A stretch of 64,000 bases of DNA from Symbiodinium sp. CCMP2592 (lineage: Eukaryota > Sar > Dinophyceae > Suessiales > Symbiodiniaceae). The stretch is taken from contig CAJNDT010005880.1 in the NCBI GenBank assembly GCA_905221615.1, positions 62,001 to 126,000 of the forward strand. The letters run 5' to 3'. The notes under the pieces are model-generated. The model was not told where the DNA came from. It did no database searches and saw only the letters and a program-made list of their open reading frames with translations. The translations under genes and the position numbers were made by a program. How positions within the stretch are numbered: the first letter of the stretch is position 1; the number at the start of each line of letters is the position of its first letter. Below are positions 4,895 to 48,105 of the stretch, piece by piece.

Positions 4895-5636
4895 GAGGAA
4901 CAGCTTCGAGAGCTCATCCGCCAGCGAATTGAGGCCTTGTGTCTACCCACCCGAGTTGCACCTAGATGTGTCCTACCGTTTAGGTTTGCAGTCTCGCGCT
5001 CCGTGGCTAGCCAGTACTTGGGGAATGTACTTTAGGGGATCCCATGTAGTTTAACTGGGTTGTGCTCTGGCATAATTTTTGATTTCCCTTATTTCCTTAT
5101 AAAGGGAACCTATTCATAAATAGTTTTCAAAGGTTTTAAAGCACAACCCAGTTAAGGTAGATTGCAGCTTAAGAGGTTTGGGAGGCTTAGGATGCCACCG
5201 TTTCTTGCCAAACCCACGTGTTCGGAAGCCTTGCTGCCAGGGCAGAATGGAGCCAGCGGACGAGATACATGAGCTCTGCGCAACCGTTAACCATGAGCTG
5301 GATTACCACGAGGACTTTCAACAGCGTTTAGGGCTTTAGGGCTTTAGGGTTCACGGGCAGGGGTATAGCAGAAAGACCTCACACAGCCTGTGCCGTGCGG
5401 CTGCTGGTGCTGCTGCTGCAGTTTCAGTTCAAGTTCTTGCAGCTACCTAGGCTACCATAACCGACTTTTTTGTAGGTTCTTGTTAACCCCAATATGGAAT
5501 TTATAAAGACACTCCAAAATTTTAGGTTTTGGTAGGAGAACCACCCAAATGCCAAGCTGCGCCGAAAGAAGGACCCGGCCACCTTCAAAGCGGCTCTGCA
5601 AGCAGCGTATGGCGAAGAGCTTCAGGACACCTGGAG
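4895..5636 (+). CDS. run of three exon-like islands
   Basis: Island 1 starts at 4895 after CCCCCCACAG and reads EEQLRELIRQRIEAL. Island 2 (5241-5312) reads MEPADEIHELCATV and could end at a GA donor in phase 0. Island 3 (5536-5636) follows TTGGTAG, reads NHPNAKLRRKKDPATF and ends at GTTTAGG. Islands 2 and 3 join in phase 0. A family R MITE lies in the first gap. The charged, helix-favouring composition looks coding, but no family is recognised. Confidence 0.35.
5055..5151 (+). mobile_element. family R MITE, 97 bp, TSD TTAA
   Basis: Begins CTGGGTTGTGCT and ends AGCACAACCCAG, with near-perfect terminal inverted repeats. It is flanked by TTAA on both sides (5051-5054 and 5152-5155). Two other 97-bp copies lie at 37835 and 47950. 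Confidence 0.93.
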
Positions 5637-32826: not shown

Positions 32827-33456
32827 GTTTCTGCGGCTTCCGGGGTTCTCTGTAGGGGCTCCTTTAAAGGCTCCTCTAAAGGCTACTATAGGATTCTATA
32901 GGGTTCGTTTAAAGGTTCTATAGAATCAGAACTCTATAGGGTTGCTTGAAGGGGTTGAGGTTTATGTCTTCGTGGCTTCTCTGTTAGGATTGCTACTGCA
33001 CTACCACCGGAGGATGATGATGCTGACGATGCTGGCGATGGCGATGGTGATGGCGCTGTGTGAAGTTACGCGAGTATGTTTGTGGGAGAGAGGGAGGGAG
33101 AGAGAGTGTGTGCGCGTGTGTTTTGTCTTTGCGTGTGTGCGTGTGGCAAAGAAGTCGTTTGGAGCAGAGTACGGTGATCTAGGGTGTTGTAGACGTTCGT
33201 AAAAGCTTTCGTTAGTGGATGTTCTGGGTTAGGGTTTTGGAGTTGGGTTGGGATCATGGGTTCAGACGTTTCGATTCTTCGATGCTAAGAAGTGTTTGCT
33301 GCTTGAGTAATTCGGGGGCTCGGAGAGCACATGGTGCCTTTGTACCCGTCCTCACAACAAGGATTTCCAGAACCCTAAACCCTGACACCCTACAAACCCT
33401 AAAGCTGAAACCCTACACCCCTACACCCCCAAAAATCCCGCCCTCGATGCCTTCAG

Positions 33457-33549
33457 CCGAAGAAGTTGTCGATCAAATCCACAGCAGCTCCCCTTCCTTG
33501 CTCTGCGCCGTCTCGGAGAGCCTTTTGCTCCTTTTTTGGGAGGCGTTCG
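33457..33549 (+). CDS. exon-like island
   Basis: EEVVDQIHSSSPSLLC, AVSESLLLLFWEAF between GATGCCTTCAG and GTTCCTTAAAGG. Upstream 33262-33361 (FRRFDSSMLRSVCCLS) may be another exon. Confidence 0.33.
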
Positions 33550-33847
33550 GTTCCTTAAAGGGATCTATAGGATTTAGGGTTGAGGATTTTATCGTTTAGG
33601 GGTTTGGGGTTTAGGGTGTAGGGGTTCAGGGATATGATTACTACAAGGGCTCTAAGAATACTGGGATACATAGAGATCACGGTGTAGAGTTCGCGATTAA
33701 GGCTCGGATCTCTTGGTAGGGTGGTTCTTGCTTCGAGGTTGTTAAGTGATATGTAGGACTGGAGAATATGAGGCTCGCTTGCAGACACCTCGTTAAGGTA
33801 CCTAAACCCTTCAGCCCTAAACCCTAGAGGTACCTAGATCCTTCTAC

Positions 33848-34252
33848 TGTACCCATGAACATGTCAGAAGGGCCTTTGACGATGCTGTTGTTCACAGGCA
33901 GGCTTTGTTTGTCGATGAGCTGTCAAGCCACATTTGTCCTTGGAGCCCAGAAGCCCGGAACCCAACGATTTTTCGCAATGACCTCATAAGGACAGACCTT
34001 TGCCATGCGCATTCTCGGCGTCTTGAGTGACCTTCTATCGACCGCAACAGTTTTGAAAGTGCCACCCAGCGTTGCTTGGCAGCTAAAGGGACACCACTCG
34101 TGCACCAGAGGTTTGCGACTTTCCACAGGCAGCGTGGGTTCAAGCCTCATTCAGGTCCGAGGGTGATCATGATGATTTTGAAGCTGCTGCAGGCCCGTAG
34201 TTACAAAACAACATCGGCAAGAGCTGAAAGTTGCTCAAGGCTACAAGCATAA
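33848..34252 (+). CDS. long open frame with one internal TGA
   Basis: From 33848 the frame reads THEHVRRAFDDAVVHR, QALFVDELSSHICPWS, PEARNPTIFRNDLIRT to TGA at 34028-34030, then stays in the same frame PSIDRNSFESATQRCL, AAKGTPLVHQRFATFH to TAA at 34250-34252. The - strand also has 75-83 codon frames. If real it is a gene with a stop mutation, an unrecognised small intron, or a selenocysteine codon; none can be decided here. Confidence 0.25.
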
Positions 34253-34506
34253 TCACTGCCTCAAACTGTCGCTAGCGATTGACCCCTAAACCTTAAACCC
34301 TAAAACCCACACTAGATGCACAGGCACGGGCATCCTGTCACAGGCTGTCGCCTCACAGCCCTGAAGCCCAAACCCTGGTTCCCAAAGCCTAAACCCTAAA
34401 CGTCCCTAAACATTTAGCCCCAGAGTCCTAAGAATCCCTACAGCCTGAACTTTCAAGCCGGGTTTACAACCCGACGATCCCAAACCCTGCAGCCTGAAGG
34501 ACTTAT

Positions 34507-34606
34507 CTAGCCACTGATATTGGGGGAGCTAAGGAGCCAGGGGTGATGATAATCCCTACTTGATTAGGAGCTAAAGAGCCAAGGGAACCCCAAAACCATA
34601 GGTTAG
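34507..34606 (+). mobile_element. family F MITE, 100 bp, TSD TTAT
   Basis: CTAGCCACTGATATTGGGGG to CCAAAACCATAGGTTAG, with TTAT at 34503-34506 and 34607-34610. Followed by a decayed B (34612-34712). Confidence 0.92.
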
Positions 34607-34841
34607 TTATTATCTAGAATATTCGGGTTATAAGTCCCCTAAGTGGGGCCTTTTTCTCTTACAGCATATTTTTTTGAATAGGTACTTACTAACTCTCGTG
34701 TTTAAGCAGCAATCCCCTGTTACTGAGGCTTCCATAAAGGTTCCCTGCAAAGTTTCTATGTAGAGCTAGGGTTTGCATTGACGGTCCCCCACTTGGTTTT
34801 CCCCTTAGCTTCCTGAGGTTCCAGCGATTCAGGGATTAGGA

Positions 34842-35131
34842 CCAGAGACTCCAATATCCCCAGATTCCCTAAATCATATTGGGGATCGTACTATGATGTA
34901 AGGTAAATTTCTTAATTCAGGGACACTGGAGTCCCCTAAACCCTATGCCCTATAGATCCCTCAAAGGAACCCTTGGGTCCTACTCGTGTTCCTTACTTGA
35001 AGGCTCATGGTAGCCTAAACTCCCCCTGAAAGAACCCTTATAGATCCCTTAAAGGAGCCCGTTAAGGACCCCCTACTTATTAAGTCCCATGACCCTTTAA
35101 GTAATTACGGGATATTGAAGTCTCTTGGAAG
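34842..35131 (+). mobile_element. family A long form with a nested B
   Basis: CCAGAGACTCCAATATCCCC to GAAGTCTCTTGGAAG. A B element (about 34994-35103) is inserted in the tail. The last AG abuts an exon-like island. Confidence 0.78.
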
Positions 35132-35393
35132 GTATGGCTTTCCAGCCGAAAGGCTTCCTTGTACCAAAGCCGGAGAGCAGGAAAAACATCAAGCCGAGGG
35201 TTTAGGGTTTAGGGTTCAGCTTTGTGATAGGGTTCAGGGTTTAGGGTTTAGGGGTGCCGGGGAACTTAAGCATAACCCTTCTGAAACCCCCTACAGAAGC
35301 TTCATAAGACTTGTTCATTAAGAGTATATTGGGCAGCCAAGTTCAAGATCCGGGGTCAACAGCCCAGTACCCGTGCCGCAAAATTCAACCGAG
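35132..35393 (+). CDS. two exon-like islands
   Basis: 35132-35199 (YGFPAERLPCTKAGEQ, EKHQAE) starts at the end of the A element and ends GTTTAGGG. 35337-35393 (PSSRSGVNSPVPVPQN, STE) lies between GGGCAG and GAG|GTATGT, both phase 0. Confidence 0.38.
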
Positions 35394-35533
35394 GTATGTG
35401 GCCCCCATCCAGAGACAGCTGCAAGTCTGCACCTGGGGTTTAGAGTTGAGGGTTTAGGCCCAAGTTGTGAAGCATAAAAGGAAACCATACTGTAGAGCCC
35501 GAACAGGAAGATCCCCATTGACATTAGGTTGCA

Positions 35534-35850
35534 GGACATGGGGAGCTGCTCCAAAGTATGTCCTTCTGTTCTAGTCCATTGCGGAGAAGCAGAGACTAGG
35601 ATGCCCAGTAGTACCCTTATTCCCTTTTTGTAGTCCTAGGTTCCTTATAAAGTTACCCAATACCAAAAAGAGAGGCCTTTTTTTTCTTAGGTTACTGGGT
35701 ATCCTAGTTCCCTTATAGATCCCTAAACCCTAAACCCTAAAGGATCCCTTAAAGGGGCCCTTTAAGGAACCCTACTAAGTATGTCCTTCTGTTCTAGTCC
35801 ATTGCGGAGAAGCAGAGAGAGACCCCGAAACTTCCTCTCGTGCCGAGCCC
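35534..35850 (+). CDS. exon split by a family E MITE with a 42-bp target duplication
   Basis: After GGTTGCAG the frame reads DMGSCSKVCPSVLVHC, GEAE up to the E element at 35596. A 42-bp copy of the exon end (35554-35595) recurs at 35777-35818 and continues RDPETSSRAEP to a stop. So one exon now carries E plus about 70 bp of GATCCCTAAACCC-type filler between duplicated halves. Confidence 0.35.
35596..35707 (+). mobile_element. family E MITE
   Basis: CTAGGATGCCCAGTAGTACC to GGTTACTGGGTATCCTAG. Confidence 0.93.
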
Positions 35851-35865
35851 TAAACCCTTTATGGA

Positions 35866-35972
35866 ACCCTTATAGATCCCTTTGAGGAACCCTTATAGAT
35901 CCCTTTAAGGAACCCTTATAGATCCCTTTAAGGAACCCTTATAGATCCCTTTAAGGAACCCTTATAGATTTG
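35866..35972 (+). repeat. 24-bp tandem repeat
   Basis: Four to five units of CCCTTATAGATCCCTTTAAG-GAA; ends in a 25-base inverted E fragment (35974-35998). Confidence 0.9.
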
Positions 35973-36101
35973 TAAGGGTACTACTGGGCATCCTAGTAAT
36001 AGCTTAGAAGCACCCTGACATGCATGCCCGGATGTTTGGATTGGATGCATGTTGCATCTGATGCACTTCTTGAAGCAGGGTTGCTTTTCGTGTTTTTGAA
36101 G

Positions 36102-36324
36102 CAGACCATCAAGGGAACGAAGGGCGCGCCTTTTGACTGGTGCAGATGGCCGCAGTGAATTTGGGGCGGCAGTTTGGGAAATTGAAGGTGCCGTTTCTGG
36201 TTCTCAGTATAAGGCTATCATTATTTTGGGGCTTTCTGCTGGGATCTCCTATGTTCTGAAACTCCCATTTTCGTACGCGGAGATTTCATGATCGACTATA
36301 CCTGCGACCCGACACGTCACCCAG
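36102..36324 (+). CDS. two exon-like islands
   Basis: 36102-36154 (QTIKGTKGAPFDWCRW) after TTTTTGAAG, ending GTGAATTT; 36283-36324 (FHDRLYLRPDTSP) ending CCCAG|GTGTGT. A short island AAELSPELHR with a GTAAGT donor follows at about 36376-36409. Confidence 0.3.
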
Positions 36325-36456
36325 GTGTGTCTAGATTGTAGGGCGTAGGTTGGGAGATTGAGAGTTTATGAATACAGTGCCGCAGAGTTGAGTCCGGAAC
36401 TGCATAGATGTAAGTTCAAGTCCGCTTTCACAGAGGTCCTTGAATTTCAACCGGAA

Positions 36457-36573
36457 CTACTTAAAGACTCATGGGACTTAATAAGTAGGTTATAATTGGG
36501 GTTATCAGCCCCGTTATCGTATTTATAACCTATTCAGAACCTTACTTACTCAGTCCCATGAGCCTGTAAGTAG
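36457..36573 (+). mobile_element. family B MITE
   Basis: CTACTTAAAGACTCATGGGA to CATGAGCCTGTAAGTAG. Confidence 0.9.
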
Positions 36574-36679
36574 ACCCAAAAAACCCCCAAGTAAACGCTA
36601 AACCCCCCCCGACACCCTTTACAACCCCTATAGTACCCTTAAGGAAGCCTAAACTCCACTTACTGTGTCCCATGATCCC

Positions 36680-36828
36680 CTAAGTATCATAGGGATCCTT
36701 AGGGGTGTAGGGGGGAGGGGTGTAGGGGACTATATTTCCTTAAATAGGCCTTATTAGTCCTTATTATGGGCCTTAAGGCCCCCTACCCCCCCCTCCCCCT
36801 ACACCGCTAAAGATCCCTATGATAAGTA
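36680..36828 (+). mobile_element. family O-type long palindrome
   Basis: CATAGGGATCCTTAGGGGTG at left, CTAAAGATCCCTATG at right with C-rich and G-rich arms (GTAGGGGGGAGGGG / CCCCCCCTCCCCC). It could form a long hairpin. Confidence 0.8.
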
Positions 36829-36847
36829 GTTGTGCATCCCAGGTTTT

Positions 36848-36883
36848 GAACTGCGACAAGCCAGATCTGGGATCGTGCGGCAA
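36848..36883 (+). other. gene 1 leader, homologous to gene 2 leader
   Basis: ACTGCGACAAGCC...GTGCGGCAA matches 37789-37826 upstream of gene 2, so the two copies share 5' leader as well as coding sequence. Confidence 0.75.
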
Positions 36884-37164
36884 CTGGGCTCTTGTTAAGG
36901 GATTCCTCAAAAGGGTTCCGTAAAGGGATTCCTTAAAGGGATCCTTAAAGGGATCTAGATGGAGTCTAAAGGGGAATTAAGGAATATGTTCTACAGGGTT
37001 CTTGTGAAGGAATGTATTTTAAGTTACCATACTAGAGATCTACGAATGTTCCTTTAAGGGATCTATAAGGGTTCCTTCCATAGCTTAGGGTTTAAGGTTC
37101 TATACTAGATCATATGGTTTCGTTATTATGGTACCTTAAATTTAGTCCCTTAAGAAGAACCCAG
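36884..37164 (+). mobile_element. family N MITE, TSD GCAA, in gene 1 leader
   Basis: CTGGGCTCTTGTTAAGGGAT to CCTTAAGAAGAACCCAG. GCAA at 36880-36883 and 37165-37168. The gene 2 leader has the uninterrupted site (GCGGCAATGCATG). Confidence 0.9.
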
Positions 37165-37199
37165 GCAATGCATGTTGCTTGGTAGATCTCGATCTCTCC

Positions 37200-37664
37200 A
37201 TGGATCCGGCGACGGCCTACTCACACACCCTCGATGTGTTGAAGGGCTTGCAGGACGTCGGCTACAGCTATGTGACTGGTGGTGACCCCGAGCATGACCA
37301 TGTTCTCTTTGACGAACCCCACGCAGGCGATGACCTGCGCCATTTCAACATCACGCAGCCGAAGCCCTTCAAGTTCCTCTTCCAGGGCCGCCACGATGCT
37401 CCCAAGTACAAGGGTCCAAACGGCGACATCTTGAACTTTGCGATCTACGAATCCGGCTCTGGCTCCGTTCTCCGGATGTTTTCGATTAGCAGGATCCATG
37501 GTGCTTTGGGGGACCATGGACAGAACTACAAGACGCTGCATTTCCTTTCCGACAAGCTCACCTCTAAGGAGCCCACTCCGGTGTATGGTTGTGGCCTTCC
37601 CATTGCATCCGCTGCCCCACCCTCCACGCAGCGCGCCAGCGAAAGCTCCTCAAGTGTTTCCTAG
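37200..37664 (+). CDS. gene 1: intronless member of an unnamed family, 154 aa
   Basis: Begins MDPATAYSHTLDVLKG and ends SSSSVS before TAG. It has no signal peptide or membrane segment and a Ser-rich tail. The conserved core GSGSVLRMFSISRIHGALGD recurs, with one substitution, in gene 2 250 bp downstream, and homology runs over almost the whole length, so it is a real coding sequence. Function not recognised. The codon aligned with the gene 2 ATG is TTG (37179-37181); the first in-frame ATG is 37200, seven codons later, so translation starts there or at a non-ATG codon. It lacks all gene 2 introns: either a processed copy, or the gene 2 introns were gained after a tandem duplication. MITE N sits upstream and MITE P at its stop. 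Confidence 0.85.
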   Translation: MDPATAYSHTLDVLKGLQDVGYSYVTGGDPEHDHVLFDEPHAGDDLRHFNITQPKPFKFLFQGRHDAPKYKGPNGDILNFAIYESGSGSVLRMFSISRIHGALGDHGQNYKTLHFLSDKLTSKEPTPVYGCGLPIASAAPPSTQRASESSSSVS

Positions 37665-37665
37665 G

Positions 37666-37754
37666 CGTACTTAGAAATAATTTCTAATTTTTGGCCATTA
37701 TAATCCCTAAGAAAGAGCTAAAATGATAATTTTGCTAGGGTTCCAAGTTCAGTA
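37666..37754 (+). mobile_element. family P MITE at the gene 1 stop codon, TSD TAGG
   Basis: GTACTTAGAAATAATTTCTA to GGGTTCCAAGTTCAGTA. TAGG at 37662-37665 (containing the stop) and 37755-37758. Second copy at 52131. Confidence 0.8.
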
Positions 37755-37834
37755 TAGGTTTGCGGAGCCTCCCCTTCCACAGTTCCGGACTGCGACAAGC
37801 CGGACCGGGGCTCTTGCGGCAATGCATGCTGCAT

Positions 37835-37931
37835 CTGGGTTGTGCTTTGGGATAATCTTTAATTTCCCTTATTTCCTTATAAAGGGAACCTATTCATAAA
37901 TATTTTTCAAAGGTTTTCAAGCACAACCCAG
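37835..37931 (+). mobile_element. family R MITE, 97 bp, TSD GCAT, at the gene 2 start codon
   Basis: CTGGGTTGTGCTTTGGGATA to TCAAGCACAACCCAG. GCAT at 37831-37834 and 37932-37935; the right TSD copy supplies the A and T of the gene 2 ATG. Confidence 0.95.
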
Positions 37932-37933
37932 GC

Positions 37934-39489
37934 ATGGCAGAGCTCGACTTCTCCCATTATCCGCAGACAGTATACCACCACGCCCTCGATGTATTGAAGA
38001 GCTTGAAGGACCACGGCTACAGCTACATTACCGGCGGCGACCCCAATCCAGGAGATGATGTCCCTAAGTGGCATTTGGGAGGCGTTAAAGTGTCCCTTGT
38101 GGTCCTATAGAGGTACCTGCTCATAAACACCTTTGGGGCCCGAAAACTACGACCCAGGTGAACCCTAACCGCTACACCCAAAACTATTGCAAAACTAGAA
38201 CCGCCCTGAACCCTAAACCCTATCCCTAAACCCTAAGCCCCAATCCCTAAACCCTAAGCCCCAATCCCTAAACCCTAAGCCCCAAACCCTAAACCCTAAG
38301 CCCAAAGCTAAAAGCCCTTAAACCCCTAAACCGAAACCCAGCTCCGCCATTACAACATCGAGAAGCCGAAGAACTTCCAGTTCATCTTCCAGGGGCGTCA
38401 TGACGCTGAGCTTCTCTTACGGAACGCCTTCTTTTGGGGGGTTTGGGGCTTAGGGTTTAGGGCCGTTTAGGATTTAGGGTCAAGGGCCGTATAGGGTTTA
38501 GGATTTAGGGCCGTTTAGGGTTTAGGATGCCGTTTAGGGTTCAGGGTTAGGGTTTGGGGTTTAGGGTTCTAAGCTATCATACTGGGGAAAATGCTCATGA
38601 ATACGTTTCTCCATCAATGTCCTTCATGTTACCATGTTGGGGCTATATCGTGATAAACATGGTTCCCACATTATGATAGCTACATTATGATAGCTGAATC
38701 TGGGCTTCTCTTAAGCGGTATCCTTCAGGAAACATTCCGTAAGATTCTGGGCTTCTCTTACTGGAAGTCGTTTCAGTTCACGTAAGGATAAAGAGTGCCT
38801 GTCTCAGCTTCCGTGATGTCCGGGCCGAAAGTTGTTCTATGCGTTGCCGTCACCGTAAGGAACTTATCTTCAGTCACCGTGATGTTCAGTATTTCGTTGT
38901 AACCTACCATACTGGGAAGATTTTAGCAATGAATATGATTCCCACATGATGGTAGCTGAAAGTAAGTTCCCTAAGAGCCACCCAGGATTCACCAAAGTAC
39001 TCGGGCCCAAACGCCGACATCTTGGACTTTACGATCTACAAAAAAGGCTCGGGCTCCGTTCTGCGGATGTTTTCGATCAGCAGGATCCATGGTGCTTTGG
39101 GAGATGCAGGCCAGAATCTCGCGTCGGCTAACAGCTACCTTTTGTGTGTGGTCCAAGTTGTCTATCCTTTTGAGAGTTTGGGGTTCAAGAAAAAGGGATT
39201 CTTATTCACCTGCTTCGATCAGAGATCCTTGTAGTTATGGTGTGTGTCGCGGTGGCTTTCGTTTTGTAAAGCTCCCGCCTGTTTTGTAAGGAATTATAAG
39301 ACTCTGGCCTTCATGGCGGACATGATGGGTGCATCGAAGAAGCCTGTCCCGAAATATGGCTGTGCCTTGACTGCATCAAGGTGCCTAAGCTTATCCCGAA
39401 ACCCTAATTCTGAACATATTAAACCCCACAAACCCCAATACCTAAATTTTACAGCGCAGCTATTTTGGCAAACTGCGCAATCACCCTAA
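37934..39489 (+). CDS. gene 2: intron-containing paralogue of gene 1
   Basis: Exon 1 37934-38059 (MAELDFSHYPQTVYHH, ALDVLKSLKDHGYSYI); exon 2 38342-38401 (LRHYNIEKPKNFQFIF, QGRH); exon 3 38986-39113 (DSPKYSGPNADILDFT, then the shared GSGSVLRMFSISRIHGALGD); exon 4 from 39291 (NYKTLAFMADMMGASK, KPVPKYGCAL). Boundaries come from alignment to intronless gene 1: intron 1 GT..AG phase 0, intron 2 GA..AG phase 0, intron 3 GA..AG phase 2. Exon 4 either runs to TAA at 39487-39489 or splices at 39381 (GTGCCTAAG, like the intron 1 donor GTCCCTAAG). Exon 1 lacks about eight codons present in gene 1. Function not recognised. Confidence 0.85.
38060..38341 (+). other. gene 2 intron 1 (GT..AG)
   Basis: Donor GTCCCTAAG, acceptor GAAACCCAG. 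The 3' half is mostly CCCTAAA/CCCTAAGCCC words, i.e. C-rich before the acceptor. Confidence 0.8.
38402..38985 (+). other. gene 2 intron 2 (GA..AG)
   Basis: Donor GACGCTGAG, acceptor GCCACCCAG followed by GA. TTTAGGG-rich near the 5' end (38440-38575). It then holds two related palindromic elements with GCTATCATACTGGGGAAAA-type ends (38571-38697 and 38897-38962). Confidence 0.8.
39114..39290 (+). other. gene 2 intron 3 (GA..AG), GAAT at both edges
   Basis: Intron begins GAATCTCGCG and ends TTTTGTAAG; the next exon begins GAAT. The 4-base direct repeat equals the target-duplication length of the MITEs, and gene 1 has one copy (AGAACTAC) at this position. Confidence 0.78.
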
Positions 39490-39602
39490 ACCCTGAACCC
39501 CCAAAACCCATAAACCCCTTCGATCCAGACCCAGAGCCGGCTCCTAGGGCTCTTTGAGGTTGTTCTCTGAGGTAGGGTCTCCCCTTTTAGGGTCCTTTAT
39601 AT

Positions 39603-39695
39603 GGGTGGTTGTCAAAATTATGGTCCCTTTTTAGGTGCCGTACTATAATATGGACCCAAAAAGTTTAAAAGGGACCATAATTTCGACAACGACCC
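39603..39695 (+). mobile_element. family G MITE, TSD ATAT
   Basis: GGGTGGTTGTCAAAATTATG to CATAATTTCGACAACGACCC; ATAT at 39599-39602 and 39696-39699. An island GAAGLFWWTQ (39702-39731) between ATGAG and GTAAGG follows. Confidence 0.92.
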
Positions 39696-39701
39696 ATATG
39701 A

Positions 39702-40387
39702 GGGTGCCGCCGGACTTTTTTGGTGGACCCAAGTAAGGAGCCTAAGTGTCAGAAGTGCCCATTTCTTGCTATATGAGAGCTTGAACAATGTGGGCTTAGG
39801 ACTAACGTTGTTTCTTCGGGTCCCTTATTGACTTCTGTAAAAACAAACCTATCCCAAAGCCACGCAAGACCTACTCTATTGCTAAGGTCGATAGATCACC
39901 AAAGTTCCCTAAACCCTACACCGTTGACCCGAGACCCTCGACCCTAGACCCTAAACCCTAAACTAAACTTGGTTTAAAGGGCACCTTCTGGAACTGAGAT
40001 AAATCTGGCACAGGTCGCTGTAATATAAGGGCCTTCATAATTACCTATACGATTGTGCTATGTGCAAGAATGAGGTGTTGTTTTGGAGAACAAACTGGTT
40101 TCTTTCAGGCCAATCTCGCTTGAGCCCGAAATCTTGCTACGGACCTGTGTGTGGCTGACGGTTGGTTGTTTATAGAATTCAAAGCAGCCTTGCCAATAAT
40201 GGTACAAGAGGCCATCAGTGACGTCGCATTTCTGAATCAGAAATTACCTGCTAGTTCGAAACACACGCACATACTTCGATCCAAGTTCCAATTTCCCATA
40301 CCCAGGTGGACTGACGTTGTGATCGCGATAGCCAGCAGCTCGGTTGCTACTATTCCGATTTCTGATGTTGTGCCGTCCTGGGCCTGA
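39702..40387 (+). CDS. exon-like islands
   Basis: 39702-39731 (GAAGLFWWTQ, donor GTAAGG); 40109-40146 (PISLEPEILLRT) between GGTTTCTTTCAG and GTGTGTGG; 40176-40260 (FKAALPIMVQEAISDV, AFLNQKLPAS) after TTTATAG; 40309-40387 (WTDVVIAIASSSVATI, PISDVVPSW) after ATACCCAG. A continuous 78-codon frame covers the last two. Confidence 0.3.
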
Positions 40388-40449
40388 ACCCTGTACTATT
40401 CTGGAACAGCTACCAATATTTTACCTCAGGGTTCCTCCTTAAATCCTCA

Positions 40450-40745
40450 TAAGCCCTTTATAGCAACCCTTAAAGAAGTATTCATTTCATTGTTATTGTT
40501 ATGAGTGTTGTTCTTCGCTAGTATTAACATGATTAAGATCTCAATATCATAAAGATCACTACTCTCATGTTTATCATGTTATTACTCTTATTCTTATTCT
40601 TGTTATTAGTATTGTCATAATTGTTCATATTGTTATTAATTTTATTCTTATTATTGTTATGATTAGCTTTAATCTTACTATCACTGTAACTATTACTACT
40701 ACCATTACCAGTACTACTACTATTACGACTACTATTACATGATCA
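40450..40745 (+). repeat. AT-rich TTATTA/TTGTTA stretch
   Basis: Imperfect triplets TTA, TTG, CTA, ACT over 300 bp; no gene. Confidence 0.8.
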
Positions 40746-40798
40746 GTTTCATGATTTTTCTTCCAATTAATGCCATCTTCATTCGCCTTAAGCTCTAG

Positions 40799-40990
40799 AG
40801 CCCAAAATACTTCAACTACGAGGCTTGAATCCCTTCAAGTCCGAAGCCATCAAACTCCCAGCCTCAGGGGTTTAGAGTTTATTGTTGGGTTTAGGGTTTA
40901 AGGGTTTACGCCTGAGGTGAAGCCTCGTTCACGCACGATCGGTTTCATTTCAGGTTGTTGAATCTCGAGACAATTAACCTTAAGCCCGAA
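40799..40990 (+). CDS. two exon-like islands
   Basis: 40799-40869 (AQNTSTTRLESLQVRS, HQTPSLR) between AGCTCTAG and GTTTAGAG; 40954-40990 (LLNLETINLK) after GGTTTCATTTCAG. The next interval 41019-41143 has an open frame AQPGTVEEFILLSTSA, ARADAHIQAPGWCSF without a clear acceptor. Confidence 0.32.
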
Positions 40991-41192
40991 TCCTAAAACC
41001 GAAATCCACCGGCGCTCAACCCGGCACTGTCGAGGAGTTCATACTGCTTTCAACATCTGCAGCGCGCGCTGACGCACACATCCAAGCTCCAGGCTGGTGC
41101 TCATTCGATGTTGGTTCTTTTGGTTTCCACACTTAGACTTGGTGATTCCGGGTGCAGGGGGTCAATGAATCTCAATCCCAAAGCCTGCACAG

Positions 41193-41880
41193 GCGGAGCC
41201 TGTGGTCGGCCGGTGGAGCTCCGATTACGAGCGAAGCAGACTCAAAAAGCGCTGGCGTGGGCTGATATAGGGGCCTTCATAATTTTAATAGAGCTCCCTT
41301 AAGGGTTCTTTGAAGGGCTTTTGAAAGGGCTCTACGAGGCTTGCTCCTTGCGAAGGCGAACAGGAAGGTATGCTTGGATTCTGAATTTCGTGCTCGCGAT
41401 TGGTTCGAAGGATGAGACAAACTTGAGATCTTAGCATAAGACTTACTCTTGGGGCCTTACTAGTCAGAATAGGATTTTGGGGCCCCTTATACGTCAACTA
41501 TAATAGGGAACCCCCAAAATAGTATTGGTCATTATTTAGGTGCTGATACTATACTGCAAGCAGAAGGGTATCCTGGAGGCAGATCATGGCTCCGAGCGCG
41601 TATTTTGAAACCATCGATGCCACCCCAAAGCTCCAGTCCCGAAACCCGGTTTAGGGTTTAGAGAATTAGGGTCTAGAGCTTTAGTGGTTAGGGGTTTGGG
41701 GTTCAGGGTTTCGGGTTTAGAGATTTAGGGTTTAGAGGTTTGGGGTTTGGGTGGGGGTTTAGGGGTTTAGGGTTTAGGGGCCAAGCCCTGAGCCCTAGCA
41801 ATCCTCATGGCAAGGTCGCGGTGAGCGATTGCCGGTGGCGTGTGGAGCTTGATTCCTTTGTTGTCAGCCCTTCTCGACGA
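41193..41880 (+). CDS. four exons in consistent phase through an H MITE
   Basis: 41193-41263 (AEPVVGRWSSDYERSR, LKKRWRG) ends at GA in GATATAGGGGCC, the left end of H. 41339-41367 (LAPCEGEQE) ends AG|GTATGC. 41561-41648 (EGYPGGRSWLRARILK, PSMPPQSSSPET) ends GTTTAGGG. 41793-41880 (PSNPHGKVAVSDCRWR, VELDSFVV) follows CCCTGAG. All four keep phase for about 90 residues. A small exon sits inside the H element, so one MITE has been divided into two introns or two insertions flank it. Confidence 0.43.
41264..41560 (+). mobile_element. family H halves around a 29-bp exon
   Basis: Left arm ATATAGGGGCCTTCATAATT and right arm CCCAAAATAGTATTGGTCAT are H ends; the interior differs from other copies. Confidence 0.65.
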
Positions 41881-42089
41881 ACCCTAAACCCAAAACCCCT
41901 AAACCCTAAGAAAGCCCCTAAACCCCAAGCCACTATAAACCTTAAACCCTATAACCCTATATGAACTTACATAATAAAAACGGTGGAACTTTAAACTTTT
42001 TGGTTTTACATGTTAGCTCTATCTTAGAAAGTTTGAACTTTTGGGGGCCCGGTTGTTGAAGAGTGAACACCTAAACCCTATACCCCTAG

Positions 42090-47931: not shown

Positions 47932-48105
47932 AATTATGGTCCCTTTTGGCTGGGTTGTGCTTTGGGATAATTTTTAATTTCCCTTATTTCCTTATAAAGG
48001 GAACCTATTCATAAATAATTTTCAAAGGTTTTAAAGCACAACCCAGTTGGGGTACCCGAAATATTAGGTGCCGTATTATAGTAAGGACCCCAAAAAGGGA
48101 CAGAC
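47932..48105 (+). mobile_element. family G MITE carrying a nested R MITE
   Basis: G arms AGTTGTCAAAATTATGGTCC and ACCCCAAAAAGGGAC are separated by an R copy (47950-48046) with TSD TTGG (47946-47949 and 48047-48050). Confidence 0.9.

Follow-up and report, generated by a model that had tools for sequence, protein, structure and literature searches.

The locus described here lies in a 64-kb window of the dinoflagellate Symbiodinium sp. CCMP2592 (contig CAJNDT010005880.1, positions 62,001 to 126,000; the window is this whole stretch of 64,000 nucleotides, and coordinates count from its first base). The isolate is named S. tridacnidorum CCMP2592 in a passage of PMC8045281. At issue are two short elements, N and R, which interrupt two related coding stretches at nearly the same position and which we take, for the reasons given below, to be probable introners. 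The features at the two insertions are as follows.

36843..36879, plus strand: coding exon of domain repeat 1, VLNCDKPDLGSCG, with homology to the proteins P0002, P0005 and P0006; its last codon would be completed across N
36880..36883, plus strand: left copy of the N target duplication, GCAA, whose GC is the predicted 5' splice donor
36884..37164, plus strand: element N, 281 bp, with the ends CTGGGCTCTTGTTA and TAAGAAGAACCCAG; predicted intron 36880-37164 (GC-AG)
37165..37168, plus strand: right copy of the N target duplication, GCAA, at which the next exon starts
37758..37830, plus strand: coding exon opening domain repeat 2, VCGASPSTVPDCDKPDRGSCGNACC; its last codon would be completed across R
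37831..37834, plus strand: left copy of the R target duplication, GCAT, whose GC is the predicted donor
37835..37931, plus strand: element R, 97 bp, with the ends CTGGGTTGTGCTTT and CAAGCACAACCCAG; predicted intron 37831-37931 (GC-AG)
37932..37935, plus strand: right copy of the R target duplication, GCAT

Read directly, the N locus runs ...GTGCG GCAA, CTGGGCTCTTGTTAAGGGA ... TCCCTTAAGAAGAACCCAG, GCAA TGCATG, and the R locus ...ATGCT GCAT, CTGGGTTGTGCTTTGG ... CAAGCACAACCCAG, GCAT GGCAG. Both are inverted-repeat elements of the form CTGGG...CCCAG, their terminal inverted repeats (TIRs) being complementary at 12 of 14 bases in N and 13 of 14 in R, and each sits within a perfect 4-bp target duplication. 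The end patterns are CTGGG(T/C)TCTTGTTA or CTGGGTTGTGCTTT. A first-pass annotation of this DNA had recognized here two different families resembling miniature inverted-repeat transposable elements (MITEs), with exactly these ends and duplications, and direct reading bears it out. When each element is excised together with one target copy, the two loci read GCGGCAATGCATGTTGCTTGG and GCGGCAATGCATGCTGCATGG, and the joined stretches align without a gap across their first 180 columns, confirming the homology that the annotation had presumed. The arrangement is reciprocal, as it had claimed: the N site is empty in copy 2 and the R site is empty in copy 1, so that each copy is uninterrupted where the other carries its element. 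Two details need correction. Copy 1 reads GCTT at the R site, not GCAT, and R, which does lie further on, is offset from N by 12 bases (4 codons) and not by about 15. A scan for CTGGG...CCCAG pairs of 40-700 bp, with at least 10 of 14 terminal bases complementary and identical 4-bp flanks, returned five places in the window and none in any of 20 first-order Markov surrogates, on which ground a chance origin of this anatomy was rejected.

What kind of sequence did the two elements enter? The first-pass annotation placed them in the leaders of genes 1 and 2, a placement that we had to abandon. With N and R left out, the stretches translate as VLNCDKPDLGSCGNACC and VPDCDKPDRGSCGNACC; the motif CDKPDxGSCGNACC runs through both copies, and the sequence coding for it is free of stops. 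GSCGNACC recurs in 16 of the 21 homologues found, including P0006 of Pfiesteria piscicida, and is invariant in all 14 members of a hand-picked alignment of these homologues (A3). Over 17 codons the two copies differ at nine bases, five of them at third codon positions, with a synonymous divergence (dS) of 0.80 and a nonsynonymous divergence (dN) of 0.09, values that rest on few sites. Judged by this conservation, both insertion sites are protein-coding, and an untranslated-leader placement was rejected on account of the conserved motif at both of them. The insertion of N separates GSCG from NACC within the motif; R sits just behind the motif. Retention of N in the message would introduce seven in-frame stops, and retention of R (101 nt with its target copy) would shift the frame and lead to a stop soon after entry. 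Lying inside a conserved coding motif, the elements can hardly persist except as introns.

The wider region can be read as a single gene. Removal of six predicted introns leaves one open frame of 332 codons with no stop, the other two frames having nine stops each. The remaining parts of this frame are listed here.

37165..37655, plus strand: coding exon, remainder of domain repeat 1
37656..37757, plus strand: predicted 102-nt GT-AG intron between the domain repeats, with GTTT at both edges; it contains the in-frame TAG that ends gene 1 of the first-pass annotation and is supported by the two-domain relatives P0002-P0004
37932..38059, plus strand: coding exon of domain repeat 2, present in the deposited protein P0001
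38060..38341, plus strand: predicted GT-AG intron without a 4-bp repeat (edges GTCC/CTCC), absent from repeat 1; the join matches P0001
38402..38985, plus strand: predicted GA-AG intron with non-repeating outer edges (GACG/GATT), absent from repeat 1; the join matches P0001
39114..39290, plus strand: predicted GA-AG intron with GAAT at both edges and no clear inverted repeat by eye, absent from repeat 1; the join matches P0001

All six predicted introns start with GC, GT or GA and end with AG, an agreement that is partly built in, as the G(C/T/A)...AG rule, along with homology, guided the placement of the joins; identical bases occupy the four positions at both edges in four of the six. The intron at 38402-38985 has an internal structure of its own. 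It closes with another CTGGG...CCCAG element, 239 bp long (38747-38985) and flanked by GATT on either side, and gives the impression that introners had inserted into an earlier intron. An 18-nt stretch around CTG(A/G)GCTTCTCTTA occurs in this composite intron three times, at 38402, 38696 and 38743. Upstream of the gene, an open stretch encoding TEVCGPHPET at 35388-35417 has the right spacing for an exon preceding VLNCDKPD, to which a 1425-nt GC-AG intron (35418-36842) would join it.

Where the first-pass annotation saw tandem paralogous genes, the copies now appear to be a pair of domain repeats within a single gene. P0002, P0003 and P0004 are themselves two-domain proteins (P0003 and P0004 partial), and the linkers before their second motif, SSSVCGASP, CSSVCGTSP and FPSYCGGDA, respectively, compare with SSSSVCGASP in the spliced window sequence, which includes the P0002 form in full. 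The single frame and these relatives led us to reject two separate genes. The deposited protein of Symbiodinium sp. CCMP2592, P0001, matches the first open frame at 98% identity with 86% of the query covered, and is likewise a single predicted protein containing both copies. It spans 37200-39370 and joins both domain repeats without the GSCGNACC of either: it starts at 37200, downstream of N, follows another frame between the repeats and joins a frame different from ours to the exon behind R. Its joins agree with our model at the last three introns and disagree at the first three (N, the intron between the repeats, and R). Since P0001 drops the conserved motif, we consider it wrong at these first three, and the prediction probably failed at the introner borders.

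Both elements have relatives at other places. Two further full-length copies of R lie in the window, both among the five places that the scan returned.

5055..5151, plus strand: second R copy, 97 bp, differing from R at 37835 in 6 of 97 bases, with flanks TTAA, not splice-compatible
47950..48046, plus strand: third R copy, 97 bp, differing from R at 37835 in 3 of 97 bases, with flanks TTGG, not splice-compatible

Pairwise, the three differ at 3, 4 and 6 of 97 bases (94-97% identity), and because their flanks differ, the ends of the element are fixed. The first-pass annotation had expected other copies to carry 4-bp flanks, and for R this holds in all three full-length copies. By blastn, one weak partial R match was found in each of L008 and L023, and one weak R-like pair in L026 (156 bp, three mismatches at each end) is without a target duplication. 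The scan rule applied above found no element in a 200-kb sample (L021-L040, of whose 20 stretches four adjoin the window and 16 lie at arbitrary places on contigs with N matches), as against five in the 64-kb window. The three near-identical R copies share one orientation, with no full-length copy in the 200 kb sampled elsewhere; in this small sample, R may be clustered locally, possibly by local hopping.

For N, the assembly was searched (1.098 Gb in 5383 contigs; 40 of 524 candidates scored), and 29 loci, chosen among the 50 matches listed, were fetched in two sets of 20 and 9. Facing N-type ends, in one pair or more, are present in 18 of the 29 and absent from 11. We reduced the 28 listed pairs to 20 distinct N-type elements, the window copy included, whose 4-bp repeats are perfect in 13, carry one mismatch in one and two or more mismatches in six; for N the expectation of 4-bp flanks thus holds in part. 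The 111-bp copies of L013 and L017 are 99% identical to that of L014, and N itself is about 67% identical to the L010 copy across its full length, having diverged more from its relatives than R. Compared with the 111-bp element of L014 and L017, N looks like an enlarged version to which CCTTAAAGG-type repeats and, near 36994, a second internal start have been added, and L012 holds an array of N-like pieces. Similar elements thus appear to stand at several places, R in three window copies with differing flanks and N at other loci, a distribution for which gene duplication offers no explanation.

How could such elements be tolerated within exons? We propose, with a probability of roughly 0.87, that N and R belong to the introners, a class of short non-autonomous DNA transposons which move by cut-and-paste and serve as spliceosomal introns where they enter exons. 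A transposase supplied in trans would cut a target with a 4-bp stagger, and repair would duplicate these four bases. If the target, read on the coding strand, has G as its first base and C, A or T as its second, its upstream copy would furnish the first two bases of the intron, GC in both cases here, while the element's own 3' end, CCCAG, would provide the AG acceptor. Splicing would then take out the element and one target copy and leave the messenger RNA unchanged. In this way, domain repeat 1 of one two-domain gene would have received N, and domain repeat 2 would have received R at a point 12 bases beyond the N position. That the duplicated target would act as donor and the element as acceptor is the main consequence of the anatomy, and the first-pass annotation had missed it. 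At N and at R alike, the frame is restored by an intron whose first two bases are the GC of the upstream target copy and whose last two are the element's AG, so that the element would fill essentially the whole intron of a coding gene and the predicted splice sites would stem from the element and the target duplication.

In favour of this are the targets that the N relatives occupy. Targets of the form G(A/C/T)NN offer the simplest splice register, and AGG(A/C/T) and NAGG two others. Of the 13 N-type copies with perfect duplications, 11 are splice-compatible on one or the other strand, with 36% expected from local 4-mers (P about 0.0005); without the window copy the count is 10 of 12 (P about 0.001). 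The simplest register alone accommodates 9 of 13, with 30% expected (P about 0.004), or 8 of 12 without the window copy (P about 0.01). In L010 a relative of N, flanked by GTGC, lies within a protein-kinase exon: when rejoined, the frame matches the Pfam family PF00069 above its cut-off (2.2e-8), and against the solved kinase 3f3z residues 19-59 align without a gap across the junction. Another relative, in L020, lies in an open frame whose TPR match is weak and falls under the Pfam cut-off, and the rejoined fragments of L017 and L003 matched no Pfam family.

Several observations weigh against the introner proposal. Two of the three splice registers were added after the copies in L003 and L020 had been seen; two of the 13 perfectly duplicated N-type copies (AAGA, ATAA) fit none of them, and seven of the 20 N-type elements have no perfect duplication at all. 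An above-cut-off Pfam match was obtained for one (L010) of the four rejoined N-relative fragments. Within the gene, two of the six predicted introns have no 4-bp edge repeat, the deposited model P0001 does not contain the N and R introns as drawn, and GSCGNACC is missing from five of the 21 homologues (P0001, P0009, P0011, P0013 and P0016), some of which are short or partial predictions. Finally, two of the three full-length R copies occupy targets unable to make introns (TTAA, TTGG). As the copy in the gene is the only one of the three that fits, the R family is to be seen as an ordinary MITE, some copies of which would become introns.

These points have to be set against what the alternatives would demand. 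If N and R were ordinary MITEs in the 5' untranslated regions of two separate tandem genes, translation would begin at the ATG codons at 37200 and 37934. The deposited P0001 does begin at 37200, repeat 1 has a TTG at the position of the repeat 2 ATG, and the first open frame ends in a stop, all as such leaders would allow. They do not account, however, for an upstream sequence that codes for a stop-free CDKPDxGSCGNACC, its core shared with most homologues, P0006 among them, nor for the excess of third-position changes in it; and the two-domain proteins P0002, P0003 and P0004, with a linker at the corresponding place, and P0001 itself, which fuses both copies, speak against two genes. We regard untranslated leaders as decidedly improbable. 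That the reciprocal pattern is a product of chance or of the assembly has next to no probability: we found no point in its favour, the surrogates yielded no scan match, and the other copies carry duplications of their own.

The order of events is best considered together with another alternative, in which both introns predate the duplication and each was precisely lost from one copy, by gene conversion mediated by complementary DNA (cDNA) or by retroposition. Spliced-leader relicts indicating retroposition are reported for CCMP2592 in a passage of PMC8045281, and all three downstream introns of repeat 2 are absent from repeat 1. Such precise loss is a possible account and a less simple one. 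It would need complementary losses in both copies, and R occurs with little change at two more places, each with a different target. Between the domain repeats dS is 0.72 (147 codons), whereas the R copies differ from one another at 3-6 of 97 bases, so that R, barring gene conversion, should have been inserted well after the duplication. We judge intron loss improbable, and insertion after the duplication very likely. The date of N is less certain than that of R, even though the clean GCAA site in repeat 2 argues for an insertion after the duplication here as well. The first-pass annotation was thus very likely right about the order of events, and too strong in stating that the paired sites date both insertions, as intron loss by cDNA gene conversion would leave the same picture.

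The protein family to which the gene belongs (37179-37664 in the window; GSCGNACC ... SRIHGALGDxGQNYKTL ... GCG) occurs in dinoflagellates and in metagenome-derived sets. Against Pfam, the first open frame matched no family up to E = 1, and the 332-residue frame none above the cut-off, with two matches below it (best E 0.014). A structure model of the family, computed from A3, has a mean predicted local distance difference test (pLDDT) score of 76, and its Foldseek search gave no convincing fold: a PR-10 protein ranks best, at a query TM-score of 0.36, and on this measure all 50 listed matches stay at or below 0.40. Elsewhere in the window, 39594-39704 forms a 111-bp hairpin with 38-nt arms of 89% complementarity, perhaps another MITE-like element, and many TTTAGGG-like, telomere-type repeat tracts are scattered over 33000-42000, some of them within predicted introns.

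The origin of spliceosomal introns is a long-standing question, and introners are well documented as one source active today. In this locus the uninterrupted exon survives in the adjacent repeat, so that the states before and after insertion are visible in one gene, and a donor derived from the target is easy to test. Going further, one might speculate that most introns of this gene are successive introner insertions into either repeat, using GC, GT and GA donors from the target, the sister repeat keeping the pre-insertion site each time, and that splice-ready landings may owe something to the transposase's own preference for 4-bp targets with G and then C, A or T, and not to selection alone. 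We find this extension doubtful at present; if true, one gene would record several intron births with a built-in control.

How do N and R compare with known systems? MITEs are non-autonomous TIR DNA transposons (as defined in a passage of PMC7789003), and N and R resemble them in being short, with inverted ends, a target duplication of a fixed 4 bp and several near-identical copies; the term MITE names the mode of movement, the term introner the outcome in an exon. Dinoflagellate introners are also the subject of Roy et al. (2023, Current Biology), a study discussed in the review PMC11453091. Within the genus, the introners of Symbiodinium microadriaticum have inverted ends and duplicate 4 bp of their target; they carry a 3' splice site of their own and obtain the 5' site from the target (Gozashti et al., 2022, PNAS, PMC9860276, legend to Fig. 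2B). N and R are like family 1 of that species in each of these respects, as far as the legend describes them, the likeness being one of described architecture and not of sequence; unlike that family, they form paired empty sites within one gene, which are specific to this locus. The introner elements of Amoebophrya A25 and A120, another dinoflagellate, have inverted repeats of 8-20 nt and direct repeats of 3-5 nt at the intron edges (passages of Farhat et al., 2021, PMC7789003), a likeness shared by N and R. There, more than 60% of introns are described as non-canonical, with variable splice motifs, whereas the edges of N and R fit the G(C/T/A)...AG usage of Symbiodiniaceae; GC and GA donors besides GT are noted for dinoflagellate introns in a passage of PMC11453091. 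Introner elements are given for about 4% of genes in the Symbiodinium group in a passage of PMC11114475, and introners are also treated in parts of PMC10522408 and PMC10666404. With the mechanism already published for the genus, as the legend cited above indicates, the N/R locus is a clean example and not a new kind of system: it is a further instance of the published introner mechanism, to which it adds a reciprocal before-and-after pair in one gene from two families.

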